A stretch of 64,000 nt of DNA from Methylotenera sp. G11 (GTDB lineage Bacteria; Pseudomonadota; Gammaproteobacteria; Burkholderiales; Methylophilaceae). Numbering within the stretch: the stretch's first letter is position 1; each line of letters opens with the position of its first letter. Under the pieces are notes generated by a model. It saw only the letters and a program-made list of their open reading frames with translations. It searched no databases and was not told the DNA's origin. The position numbers and the translations under genes were made by a program. Location of the stretch: NCBI RefSeq assembly GCF_000799735.1, contig NZ_JUHH01000001.1:930001-994000 (forward strand), in the 5' to 3' direction. Below are positions 16,112-52,865 of the stretch, one piece after another.

Positions 16112-16166
16112 AAACTTTGCATCAATCTAAAGATTGGTTCGTTTTTTTACGGAATATCATAAAACC

Positions 16167-16192
16167 GTCATTCCGGCAAAGGCCGGAATGAC
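16167..16192. repeat. Solo palindrome of the GIY-YIG element family
   Basis: A 26-bp perfect dyad with 11-bp arms starting GTCATTCCGGC and a 4-base loop. The sequence matches the outer part of the terminal repeats of the elements at 19421, 29750, 52075 and 52698, but here both sides are outer ends (GTCATTC...GAATGAC). It lies 55 bp after the YdcF-like gene and could also act as a weak transcript 3' hairpin. Confidence 0.7.
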
Positions 16193-19412: not shown

Positions 19413-19420
19413 ACATCTCC

Positions 19421-19771
19421 GTCATTCTGGCGCAGGCCAGAATCCAGACTAGATAAAATATGCAGCCTTGTGTTTACATGATGACAAATCAGCGTAACGG
19501 CACCTTATATATTGGCGTTACCTCCGATTTAATAAAACGCGTATGGCAGCACAAACATGAAGTAGCTGACGGCTTTACTAAAAAGTATCGATTACATAAT
19601 GTTGTTTGGTATGAGCCTCATGAAACAATGGAATCTGCAATTACGAGAGAAAAAGCACTTAAATTCTGGCAGCGAGTTTGGAAAGTTCGCCTTATTGAGC
19701 AACTGAATCCTAATTGGCAAGATTTATATCCTGAAATACTTGGTCTGGATTCTGGCCTGCGCCAGAATGAC
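19421..19771 (+). mobile_element. GIY-YIG element A, 351 bp with perfect 29-bp inverted repeats
   Basis: The left end (19421-19449) and right end (19743-19771) are exact 29-base inverse complements. Each is itself a near-palindrome: outer GTCATTC, a dyad CTGGC/GCCAG type core, inner AATCCAGAC. Between them lies a single GIY-YIG nuclease gene. The element fills the gap between dcd (stop 19412) and the decarboxylase (start 19801). A second element with the same layout is at 29750-30094. I see no clear target-site duplication. Mobility is inferred from repeat structure and copy number. Confidence 0.75.
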
Positions 19772-19804
19772 GAGCAAGGCAATAACACACAAAGGTTACT
19801 ATGA
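19460..19804 (+). CDS. GIY-YIG nuclease-domain protein of element A
   Basis: A 114-residue single-domain GIY-YIG protein (UPF0213/YhbQ-like). Visible motifs: VYMMTNQRNGTLYIGVTSDL (about 5-24, the GIY and YIG strands), Arg27, His31, and the helix SAITREK with the likely catalytic Glu64. The start MQPC is 10 bp inside the left repeat. The reading frame runs through the right repeat, which encodes part of the tail (LDSGLRQND), and its TGA overlaps the ATG of the next gene by 4 bases. The copy in element B is about 60% identical by eye and ends before its repeat, so the tail here is probably not functional. Confidence 0.85.
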   Translation: MQPCVYMMTNQRNGTLYIGVTSDLIKRVWQHKHEVADGFTKKYRLHNVVWYEPHETMESAITREKALKFWQRVWKVRLIEQLNPNWQDLYPEILGLDSGLRQNDEQGNNTQRLL

Positions 19805-29730: not shown

Positions 29731-29749
29731 ACTAATCTCTCAAACTTCC

Positions 29750-30094
29750 GTCATTCCAGCGCAAGCTGGAATCCAGTTACAATAGGTCGTGATATAAATC
29801 ACGCCAAACTAAATTACTTCGCTCAATAAGTTCAATCTTCCAGGCACGTTTCCACGCTTTTATATTCTTCTCTCGAGCAATTGCCGATTCCATCGTTTCA
29901 TGGATTTCGTAATACACCAATTCATGCACGGCATACTTTTTGGTAAAACCTTCTGCCAAATCGTTTTTATGCTGCCATACTCGTTTTATTAAATCCGACG
30001 TAACTCCAACGTACAAAATGCCATTTTTCTTACTCGCCAGAATATAAATACAAGGCTGCATGGTGACCTGGATTCCAGCTTGCGCTGGAATGAC
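29750..30094 (-). mobile_element. GIY-YIG element B, 345 bp with perfect 27-bp inverted repeats
   Basis: The ends at 29750-29776 and 30068-30094 are exact 27-base inverse complements and share the design of element A: outer GTCATTCC, dyad AGC/GCT core, inner GGAATCCAG. One GIY-YIG gene fills the interior, its stop codon touching one repeat (29777) and its start 6 bp from the other. The element lies between hom (stop at 30105) and thrC (start at 29730) in the same orientation as both. It differs in sequence from element A, so this is not a recent duplicate. Confidence 0.75.
29777..30061 (-). CDS. GIY-YIG nuclease-domain protein of element B
   Basis: A 94-residue GIY-YIG protein starting MQPCIYILASKKNGILYVGV, with TSDLIKRVWQHK (Arg27, His31) and the helix SAIAREK holding the likely catalytic Glu64. 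By eye about 59 of 94 aligned residues match the protein of element A. An upstream in-frame extension exists but would be translated from the repeat and the hom end, so the MQPC start with AGG just before it is preferred. Its single domain and short size fit a homing-type or repeat-specific nuclease, yet the activity is not known. Confidence 0.85.
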   Translation of the reverse strand: MQPCIYILASKKNGILYVGVTSDLIKRVWQHKNDLAEGFTKKYAVHELVYYEIHETMESAIAREKNIKAWKRAWKIELIERSNLVWRDLYHDLL

Positions 30095-30104
30095 AGAACA
30101 TGGC

Positions 30105-44286: not shown

Positions 44287-46092
44287 CTAATGCAGCTCTC
44301 CGTATATTTTCTCAGCCAGCGCCTGGCTGATGCCTTCAACATTGGCGATTTCGTCAATACTAGCACTTTTTACGCCATCTAGCCCGCCAAAGCGAGTCAG
44401 CAGGGCTTTGCGCCGCTTGGCGCCTATGCCTTCTATATCTTCCAGGCTGGAATGCATCCTGGCCTTGCCGCGCTTCGCCCTATGCCCGGTGATGGCAAAA
44501 CGGTGTGATTCATCGCGTATCTGCTGCAACAGATGCAGGCCCTTGTTGTCTTTTTCCAGGTTGATCATTTCACCGGTGTCGGAAAAAATCATGGTTTCCA
44601 GGCCTGGCTTGCGCTCTTCGCCTTTGGCAATGCCTACCAGCAGAATGTCATCGAGGCCGACTTCCGCCATGACCTCCATTGCCACACCGAGCTGGCCTTT
44701 GCCGCCATCAATAAATATCAGGTCAGGGCGCACGCCCTCTCCTGTCGCCACTTTCCTGTAACGCCGGGTCAGCACATCACGCATTGCCGCGTAATCGTCG
44801 CCTGGGGTAATACCGGTGATGTTGTAACGGCGGTATTCGCTATTCTGCATATCGCCGCGGTCAAACACGACACAACTGGCGACAGTCGCCTCACCCATGG
44901 TATGGCTGATATCGAAGCACTCTATACGCTCGGTGCTGTCAGGCAAACGCAGCGCTTCGCGCAGTGCCACAAGTTTCGCAGCCTGGTTCGCCGAAGTTGC
45001 CGCGCGCTGCCCCAGCGCCAGTTCGGCATTGGTCTGTGCCATTTTCAGCCACACGCGCTTATCGCCGACCGGGTTGGTATTGATCTTCACTTTACGCCCG
45101 GCCTGCTCACTCAGCACCTCCTCCAGCACAGCCGTTTCTATTTTGACACCGGTCACGATCAGGGGCGGTGTATTCTGCGCCATGTAATGCTGGCCGATAA
45201 AGGCTTCAACACTGTTTTCCAGCGTTTCGCCATCAGTATTTTTCGGCATATAACTGCGGTCACCCAAATGACGGCCGCCGCGTATCATCACCAGATTAAT
45301 GCAATGCTGCCCCTGCAATTCCGCACAGGCAATCACATCAGCATCGGATACATTAAAGTCGCTTACAAACTGTTTGGCCTGCACCTGGCGCAAAGCCTGT
45401 ATGCGGTCACGGAATAGCGCAGCCTGCTCATACTCCTGGTTAGCTGCCGCTTTATTCATCTGCTCGCCAAGTGCATCCATCACTTCGCTCGTCTTGCCTT
45501 GCAGGAACATGGCAGCCTGATGCACATCATTGCGATAATCTTCACCTGAAATCAACCCTACACACGGAGCGGTACAGCGCTCGATCTGATGCTGCAGGCA
45601 AGGCCGGCTGCGATTGGCGAATACGGTATTCTCGCAGGTACGCAGCTTGAACACTTTCTGCAACAGCTGAATGCTCTCGCGTACCGCTACCGAATTGGGA
45701 AACGGCCCGAAATACTGATTACCCTTGCGCTGCGCACCACGGTGAAATGCCAGCCGCGAGAACTCGTCCCCGGTTAAAGTAATGTAAGGGTAAGACTTAT
45801 CATCACGAAACAGCACGTTATAACGCGGCATCAACCCTTTGATCAGGTTGTTTTCCAGCAGCAAAGCTTCTGCCTCGCTGCGCGTCACCGTGGTTTCTAT
45901 TTTGACAATATTGCTCACCATCATGCGCGTGCGCGGACTAGGCAGGTTTTTATTGAAATACGACGAAACGCGTTTTTTAAGGTCTTTGGCCTTGCCTACA
46001 TAAATCACCTCGTCCACAGCGTTGATCATGCGGTACACGCCTGGCAGGTTGGGCAGGTTTTTCAGGATAGGTTTAGGATCGAACATAGGCAT
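44287..46092 (-). CDS. uvrC: Excinuclease ABC subunit C
   Basis: Makes both incisions around DNA lesions in nucleotide excision repair. The 601-residue protein has the N-terminal GIY-YIG nuclease (about 15-90, GVYRMINAVDEVIYVGKAKD), a Cys-rich region, the UvrB-binding coiled coil (about 200-235), the RNase H-like C-terminal nuclease (about 380-530, with CFDISHTMGEATVAS and FIDGGKGQL) and two helix-hairpin-helix repeats at the end. Length is typical. Its GIY-YIG domain is unrelated in detail to the small proteins at 19460 and 29777. Confidence 0.97.
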   Translation of the reverse strand: MPMFDPKPILKNLPNLPGVYRMINAVDEVIYVGKAKDLKKRVSSYFNKNLPSPRTRMMVSNIVKIETTVTRSEAEALLLENNLIKGLMPRYNVLFRDDKSYPYITLTGDEFSRLAFHRGAQRKGNQYFGPFPNSVAVRESIQLLQKVFKLRTCENTVFANRSRPCLQHQIERCTAPCVGLISGEDYRNDVHQAAMFLQGKTSEVMDALGEQMNKAAANQEYEQAALFRDRIQALRQVQAKQFVSDFNVSDADVIACAELQGQHCINLVMIRGGRHLGDRSYMPKNTDGETLENSVEAFIGQHYMAQNTPPLIVTGVKIETAVLEEVLSEQAGRKVKINTNPVGDKRVWLKMAQTNAELALGQRAATSANQAAKLVALREALRLPDSTERIECFDISHTMGEATVASCVVFDRGDMQNSEYRRYNITGITPGDDYAAMRDVLTRRYRKVATGEGVRPDLIFIDGGKGQLGVAMEVMAEVGLDDILLVGIAKGEERKPGLETMIFSDTGEMINLEKDNKGLHLLQQIRDESHRFAITGHRAKRGKARMHSSLEDIEGIGAKRRKALLTRFGGLDGVKSASIDEIANVEGISQALAEKIYGELH

Positions 46093-52676: not shown

Positions 52677-52697
52677 ATAGCTGAATTCCAAATTAAC

Positions 52698-52808
52698 GTC
52701 ATACCAGCGTAGGCTGATATCCAGTCAAAGCGGCGTTCATGAATCATTGACAATTTCCACACAGCTTGGCATTTACCTAATCTGGATTCCCGCCTGCGCG
52801 GGAATGAC
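52698..52808. mobile_element. Mini-element D, 111 bp, ends like the GIY-YIG elements, no gene
   Basis: Left end 52698-52724 (outer GTCATACC, a more degenerate copy) and right end 52782-52808 (identical over 27 bases to the right end of mini-element C) in inverse orientation, with 57 bp between. No gene inside. Together with mini-element C it flanks the membrane protein gene. Confidence 0.72.
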
Positions 52809-52865
52809 GACAGTTGTTATTGCAATTTTCACTGATAAAAGTACTGTCATTATTACTATATCAGC

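Follow-up and report, generated by a model that had tools for sequence, protein, structure and literature searches.

Single-domain GIY-YIG nuclease genes enclosed by CGTC-tagged REP palindromes: a probable partner enzyme for a large family of orphan repeats

The 64,000-nucleotide stretch of Methylotenera sp. G11 considered here as the window (bases 930001-994000 of a one-contig 2.55-Mb genome) contains two units of 353 bp, element 1 (19420-19772) and element 2 (29746-30098), in each of which one GIY-YIG nuclease gene lies between an inverted pair of CGTC-tagged repetitive extragenic palindromic (REP) sequences. It is likely that each unit is an autonomous CGTC-REP element, in which a single-domain GIY-YIG nuclease is encoded between two copies of the REP that it recognises, the CGTC heads of these pointing outward. 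A large family of orphan repeats probably owes its spread to this nuclease, which would be its missing partner enzyme. The partner relation between nuclease and CGTC REPs, together with full, collapsed and absent alleles at shared gaps, emerges firmly from the comparison of genomes.

CGTC-tagged REPs were named in 2013 by Di Nocera, De Gregorio and Rocco (PMC3733652), who described them as having no transposase of their own. In the parts of that paper considered here they are described by a CGTC or TGTC head, an 8-bp stem beginning with AT, a 4-nt loop and a CCA tail, occur mainly as CGTC-outward dimers in many copies per genome, and are intergenic in several phyla, including Neisseria, Rickettsia and Wolbachia; Neisseria dRS3 and Rickettsia RPE-4 and RPE-6 are equated with the superfamily, and no transposase gene flanked by CGTC REPs is reported there beyond a few fortuitous cases. 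The repeats of the window belong to this superfamily, matching every feature tested: they have an unpaired CGTC or TGTC at one end, a stem starting with AT and within the 8-9 bp of the definition, a loop within its 4-5 nt and a CCA tail, and they are repeated genome-wide, mostly as CGTC-outward dimers. A loose REP pattern occurs at nine places in the window, against 0.01 expected, and at 48 places in the genome, against none for the reversed pattern, symmetric hairpins being counted on both strands. Many of the genomic places are gene-less dimers with CGTC ends outward, the two stems being unlike in most of the nine inspected. Such dimers are dispersed, and several in genome G028 have a regular offset of 77-79 bases.

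Both elements of the window follow one layout (Table 1). An earlier note on this DNA had described exact inverted repeats of 29 bp, each internally palindromic, around a GIY-YIG gene, an observation confirmed here. At element 1 the repeat is 30 bp long and 100% complementary, and at element 2 it is 31 bp long and 97% complementary; in the same search, which required a 12-base exact seed, one further inverted pair of at least 20 bp within 1500 bp was found in the window. The arms run in the order CGTC head (TGTC in the upstream arm of element 2), 8-bp stem starting with AT, 4-nt loop and CCAG tail. When one arm per element, the left by coordinate, is folded, both form hairpins whose stem has 8 bp and whose loop has 4 nt (z -4.1 and -5.4). 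The conserved domain of element 1 stops near 19747, and its open frame crosses the right arm, ends 32 bp past it and overlaps the start of the next gene. The second copy announced near 29750, with the same layout and a different sequence, was found as element 2, its palindromes related to those of element 1 without being identical (stem CCAG versus CTGG, one arm tagged TGTC versus CGTC) and its protein 63% identical. The GIY-YIG gene is the sole recognisable gene inside either element, and neither holds a DDE/DDD transposase gene. Membership of the CGTC REP superfamily, the many gene-less dimers and the frame running through the right arm are additions to the earlier account. Read-through of CGTC REPs is also visible in the C-terminus encoded at locus L057, where peptides such as VIPAQAGIQ and LDSRLRGND occur in predicted proteins, as it is at the C-terminus of the window gene.

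Table 1. Positions within the window of the two gene-bearing elements and of further REP structures
Position	Strand	Feature
19420..19449	+	Left CGTC REP of element 1: head CGTC, stem ATTCTGGC, loop GCAG, stem GCCAGAAT, tail CCAG
19460..19804	+	GIY-YIG nuclease gene of element 1: 114-aa frame, the last ~20 residues being read-through of the right REP
19664..19672	+	Codons 69-71 of element 1 (F-W-Q); residues 69 and 71 co-vary with stem bases
19743..19772	-	Right REP (CGTC) of element 1: same sequence as the left REP, in inverted orientation
29746..29776	+	REP downstream of the element 2 gene: head tag CGTC from 29749, stem ATTCCAGC
29777..30061	-	Element 2 nuclease gene (GIY-YIG) of 94 aa, with A and K at residues 69/71
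30068..30098	-	REP upstream of the element 2 gene: inverted, head tag TGTC
16166..16192		Symmetric hairpin, each end bearing a CGTC/TGTC tag; terminator-like
52074..52181		Gene-less CGTC-outward dimer, left stem of CCGG type, right stem of CCCG type; candidate non-autonomous unit
52697..52809		Further dimer lacking a gene, its left arm ATACCAGC-like and its right arm CCCG

The association of gene and palindrome extends well beyond the window. A strict hairpin test was applied to 139 places, comprising 47 from the family, 12 from plasmid records and 80 from a wider scan, and a CGTC-outward pair was found around the gene at 62 of them, in several phyla, with at least one tagged hairpin at 57 more (119 of 139 in total); merging near-copies at 90% DNA identity leaves the pair at 60 of 133. 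No pair was present in 126 control windows shifted by 700 bases (13 more lay too close to an edge), 38 of which held some tagged hairpin, though these windows lie mostly in coding sequence, where REPs are rarer. Free of that weakness, and the cleaner of the two controls, are YhbQ-type GIY-YIG genes of the same genus, none of which lies in a CGTC-outward pair and seven of which have some tagged hairpin, but these amount to just 30 places. Scoring of inverted repeats between the flanks gives a similar picture. Within the family, 30 of 150 genomes carry a relative of the nuclease, at 47 places, and the score reaches at least 15 at 29 of these, while shuffling one flank never brings it above 11; random pairs of flanks from different loci reach 15 in five of the 30 values listed, because loci share REP sequences. 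The wider scan, with one genome per species, yielded at least 577 relatives, mostly in Pseudomonadota with some in other phyla, many of the latter metagenome-assembled genomes; among the best 80, which were taken further, 54 of 78 scorable loci reach 15, against none of 62 windows shifted by 900 bases. A class search with the window's own genome left out supplied 69 loci as a third set, in which 41 of 66 scorable loci do so, against none of 57 controls.

REP abundance tracks the presence of the gene, as in RAYT/REPtron systems. The median REP pattern count is 15 in the 30 genomes with the gene and 0 in the 120 without it (Mann-Whitney p 6e-14), permuting the labels inside genera yields p 5e-5, the lowest value that 20,000 permutations allow, and subtracting two arms per gene leaves a median of 12.5 against 0 (p 1e-10). 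The REP-flanked gene is present in 12 of 24 sampled genomes of the genus, and the YhbQ-type gene in 49 of 52. In some clades of the nuclease the flanks hold imperfect palindromes of a different kind, namely GTCATTGCGAGC...GAAGCAATC at L319 and L334, with pieces of it at L312 and L316, GTCATTCTGAGC...GAAGAATCC at L075, and CACTGAGCTTGTCGAAGTG at L080. The relation of nuclease and palindrome may be wider than CGTC REPs, these six loci possibly representing sister element families.

The protein itself is a single domain of 94-96 residues, the window proteins having about 95 conserved residues and no separate DNA-binding domain. The GIY-YIG domain is above cut-off in both window genes, and PF01541 (GIY-YIG) matches all 13 members of alignment A1, the other Pfam matches being T5orf172 (six members, weakly) and SegE_GIY-YIG (one); no HUH family is among the Pfam matches of these 13. 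Alignment A3 shows no variation in any of its 42 rows at Y6, Y17, R27, H31, E64 and N83, which we take to be the active-site positions of GIY-YIG enzymes. The best match of the predicted structure is UPF0213 BH0048, followed by the Slx1-Slx4 and UvrC N-domains, with a weaker match to I-TevI. Median dN/dS, the ratio of nonsynonymous to synonymous substitution rates, is 0.09, with all values below 0.5, in 38 non-independent pairs of intact genes of 72-98% protein identity, which indicates that the nuclease genes are under purifying selection; 10 of the 49 nuclease match rows in the family contain an internal stop. Two further GIY-YIG genes are present in the genome, one inside a 602-aa frame at window position 45817, presumably uvrC to judge from the length of the frame, and a YhbQ-like gene at 2434289 that is not within a CGTC-outward pair. 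The nuclease has no match in 50,697 phage records at E 1e-5, and 64 loci were matched in IMG/VR.

Recognition of the palindrome by the protein is suggested by the way in which the two change together. Of the 62 enclosed genes, 41 have the same stem half on the left as on the right (shuffled mean 9.9, maximum 19 in 5000). On a tree of 35 family proteins, 26 of which were labelled by eye with four stem types, some from one arm alone, the remaining rows (five of a mixed or different type, four with none) being set aside, stem type changes four times, the minimum possible being three and the shuffled mean 13, with none of 200 shufflings that low. Stem type is not simply linked to the host, two types being found within the window genome and two within G028. 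When the proteins are aligned by stem type, residues 69 and 71 of the motif EKxxKxWxR change with stem bases 5-6. Among 51 equal-armed loci, K69 is found in 27 of 28 with CC stems and in two of 23 others (p 5e-11), or in 24 of 25 and two of 23 when three near-copies of a locus already in the first set are removed (p 3e-10); E or N at position 69 is found in 10 of 13 with CG stems and in none of 38 others, the N69-for-CG rule having been added post hoc and seen in the test set only. These p values are weakened by shared ancestry. Kinship should, however, affect every column of the alignment equally, and the way in which columns 69 and 71 stand out therefore speaks against ancestry alone: in 53 proteins their excess information is 0.97 and 0.50 bits, the third best column having 0.28. 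Without the three near-copies the values are 0.98, 0.48 and 0.25, and without the discovery family set (38 proteins) the same two columns still lead with 0.82 and 0.40, the next having 0.29. A hand-picked set of 28 further loci with REP-like stems, the rows of which were chosen by the analyst, lends weak support (K69 versus CC, p 0.004; p 0.02 without near-copies). In an AlphaFold2 model (mean predicted local distance difference test score 93.6) helix 57-69 ends with residue 69, and residue 71 belongs to the turn that precedes helix 72-82. Matching a basic residue to G, and an acidic one to C, on the partner strand would be chemically sensible. The proposal of the earlier note that a GIY-YIG nuclease plays a RAYT-like role, recognising the palindromic ends, gains support from both co-occurrence and co-variation, the opposite of the outcome that it had named as counting against it.

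Shared gaps between genes hold the element in several states. Among 21 stretches covering the hom-thrC gap, 19 contain both genes, and seven of these hold an element or its remains, four one symmetric hairpin and eight neither; the symmetric hairpins sit at the element's place, two of the four with the tag CGTG on both sides. In the gap after thrC, G060 has an element and G069 a symmetric hairpin with the same stem and no intact CGTC tag. At the Sphingobium fnrL gap three of the records read have the full element, two have a symmetric hairpin and two have neither, and the dcd gap contains the element in three of 30 loci, one contig ending within a repeat. The symmetric form consists of the left half of the left REP and the right half of the right REP, and may be the result of slippage between direct copies of the stem halves, an excision scar or an insertion target. 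Presence is patchy, with several sites per genome, and alike copies with unrelated flanks occur within one genome (about 96% identity over 356-406 bp in G272, 92% over 392 bp in G394), all of which fits mobility as far as it can be read from such comparisons. The earlier note had also looked to relatives for empty sites, and element-free sites do exist there, while a base-exact border of a gene-bearing element and a target duplication do not appear. At L136 and L152, both in the hom-thrC gap, the loop of the left REP carries about 40 and 60 extra bases, as if by insertion in the hairpin loop. In Azospirillum lipoferum 4B an element lies between sufB and sufC (L116) and is absent there in the four related plasmids compared. 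A length difference between Rhizobium plasmids was rejected as an empty site, being a tandem duplication of a dimer unit. Within the window, the symmetric hairpin of Table 1 may be a collapsed form such as is seen at element sites in relatives, and the two gene-less dimers have unlike stems and about 520 bases between them. A unit of about 16 bp (GGGTCTTGCTCGTCTCT-like) is expanded in tandem beside the REP head at L476 and L475, its length differing between two related genomes.

Movement and cleavage are what we infer from these comparisons, and a plausible course can be outlined. The nuclease would bind its palindrome either at two half-sites or in the form of an extruded hairpin, read the stem with the turn between the two C-terminal helices, and cut at the two outward CGTC heads, freeing the element or a gene-less dimer, which host enzymes would rejoin elsewhere without target duplication. 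Gene-less dimers would be moved in trans, and the inside of an element might be lost by slippage between stem halves or by the same cutting, leaving one symmetric hairpin.

Several results weigh against the reading as an autonomous element, besides the limits of the two controls given above. No tagged hairpin was found at 20 of the 139 places; G006 and G090 contain 33 and 32 REPs and no gene, and G020 and G031 have the gene and lack the searched REP pattern. In the wider alignments A1 and A2, R27 does vary. The residue-stem rule was fixed in writing before further loci were obtained. At the 22 of these that could be scored it gave 11 correct calls, 10 incorrect ones and one half correct; the 22 retain some weak REP-unlike hairpins also taken by the hairpin finder and the source of some wrong calls. 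For the nine with two equal arms it was right at seven and wrong at two. Three of the right calls (L281, L298, L314) are the near-copies, their model being L214, and without them the rule was right at eight, wrong at 10 and half right at one, or right at four and wrong at two for equal arms. K69 with N71 went with a CC stem at all five such test loci having a REP, three being the near-copies. As a prediction the rule is only moderately good. Independent pairs number one on well-supported branches and six on all branches. Sixty elements showed no excess of direct repeats of 1-8 bp and hence no target duplication, and none of the gaps examined yielded a base-exact empty site for an element with its gene; these gaps comprised the dcd and hom-thrC gaps, Sphingobium and Azospirillum plasmids and a strain comparison covering about 38 kb of four 50-kb stretches; base-exact borders were not reached because the flanks are too diverged. 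Three copies of 99% identity in G204 (L402, L403, L404) were rejected as proof of movement, the unit of about 345-378 bp having a broken GIY-YIG gene and, beside TA in two copies, outer ends TAGGGCG.../...CGCCCTA like those of a miniature inverted-repeat transposable element (MITE). This suggests a MITE that picked up an element, and the best multi-copy case is thereby lost.

GIY-YIG enzymes include homing endonucleases, such as I-TevI and the products of seg/mob genes, and the main rival explanation is a homing-like spread, in which the nuclease would be a free-standing homing endonuclease with the REP as its site, breaking REPs elsewhere so that host gene conversion copies the gene between the arms. 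The arms offer ready homology for this, weak matches to such families were obtained, target duplication is not to be seen, and at element sites the symmetric hairpin might be no scar but the target of the cut; gene-less alleles are seen at shared gaps, where copying and loss give the same picture. An insert acquired by homing would, however, take over the REP halves of the recipient, and the arms of an element usually match each other while other REPs of the same genome differ, so that equal arms count against this explanation. The dispersal of gene-less dimers, including those of regular offset in G028, and the lack of a second DNA-binding domain in proteins this small do so as well, and we regard homing as unlikely, though the most serious of the alternatives. 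Somewhat less probable still is that the REPs are binding or regulatory sites, such as terminators, of a resident upkeep nuclease, neither moving now and both co-evolving as has been proposed for domesticated RAYTs. Purifying selection, hairpins strong enough to terminate transcription, symmetric hairpins kept between genes and paired changes on both sides of the stem in two genomes (L142, L143) all agree with such a role. A resident function is difficult to reconcile with the patchy distribution of the gene in the family and the genus, set against the near-universal YhbQ-type gene, with several genes per genome at different sites, with the internal stops, and with alike copies in unrelated flanks within one genome.

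It is also conceivable, though very improbable in our judgement, that another transposase (a RAYT, DDE or MITE system) moves the REP dimers and that the nuclease gene landed inside some of them as a passenger. REPs have been reported as targets of insertion sequences, as far as the part of that report consulted goes (PMC1525189), the G204 copies have their TAGGGCG-type inverted ends, and a MITE of G233/G370 (L438 versus L461; L464-L491) carries CGTC dimers in several copies, and in some a GTAG-like palindrome. The latter MITE has inverted ends CTGATGTTAC/GTAACATCAG, a 7-bp TTATTAA duplication and a clean empty site in a near relative, and the base-exact empty site of L438/L461 was set aside as one for the MITE carrying the dimer and not for the dimer itself. 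One G233 copy of this MITE holds a symmetric hairpin where other copies hold the dimer. A passenger gene would not predict a residue-stem relation that peaks at two positions of one turn, nor the co-occurrence of gene and REP numbers within genera, nor the same layout in several phyla, and the scarcity of transposase genes flanked by CGTC REPs in the account of Di Nocera et al. (PMC3733652) does not favour it.

An autonomous GIY-YIG/CGTC element would resemble several known systems. In RAYT/TnpA-REP systems with GTAG REPs (REPtrons, REPINs), the enzyme gene is likewise bordered by palindromes thought to be its substrate, REP number follows the gene, group-specific recognition co-evolves with the stem, and dimers are dispersed. 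There the enzyme is HUH and the tag GTAG, whereas here the enzyme is GIY-YIG and the tag CGTC or TGTC; the GIY-YIG/CGTC system thus works like RAYT/REP without being one, having neither the HUH enzyme nor the GTAG tag. It differs further in that the gene lies inside an outward dimer and sometimes at several sites per genome, unlike TnpA-REP, described in the part of the source used here as mostly single-copy and without evidence of mobility (PMC8266576). Relative to the CGTC REPs as described in the parts of the 2013 paper used here (PMC3733652), a candidate dedicated enzyme within the dimer is added. GIY-YIG homing endonucleases share the catalytic fold and residues and the selfish spread of a nuclease gene, and differ in that here there is no separate DNA-binding region and no intron, and the ends are inverted palindromes. 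UPF0213/YhbQ-type proteins are alike in size, single domain and fold (1zg2, 1ywl) and differ in being near-universal in the genus and never enclosed by a CGTC-outward pair at the places compared. From DDE insertion sequences and MITEs the elements are set apart by having no DDE/DDD transposase gene and no target duplication. In the open-licence library searched no paper contains both 'GIY-YIG' and any of 'repetitive extragenic palindromic', 'dRS3' or 'UPF0213', and 'GIY-YIG' with 'REPIN' occurs only in restriction-enzyme papers, judged by titles and the starts of abstracts; at that same level no link of a GIY-YIG nuclease to REPs appears among the papers listed from this library, which excludes subscription papers and preprints. 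The string GIY is absent from the main text of RepRanger 2025.

A broader reading, on which, with all its parts taken together, our judgement is evenly balanced, is that of a separate class of mobile elements over several bacterial phyla, with a single-domain GIY-YIG nuclease as the equivalent of the transposase. In this nuclease the CGTC REP superfamily (dRS3, RPE and others) would have its lost enzyme, as would sister palindrome families in the sister clades with which they pair, and the nuclease would read the palindrome mainly by two residues, with K69 for CC, E/N69 for CG, F/Y69 for TG and A69 for CA/CT. Asymmetric REPs with CGTC head and CCA tail would be junctions of the attL/attR type and the symmetric hairpins at element sites, whether remnants or targets, of the attB type, and many intergenic terminator-like hairpins would be footprints of GIY-YIG/CGTC elements.

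CGTC REPs have been without a known enzyme since they were named in 2013, and a 95-residue nuclease with a relation of residue to base makes the question of that enzyme directly testable. Should this be confirmed, bacterial transposition would gain a new class of enzyme, many terminator-like hairpins would be accounted for as footprints of elements, and a very small structure-reading nuclease, tunable in sequence, would be at hand.
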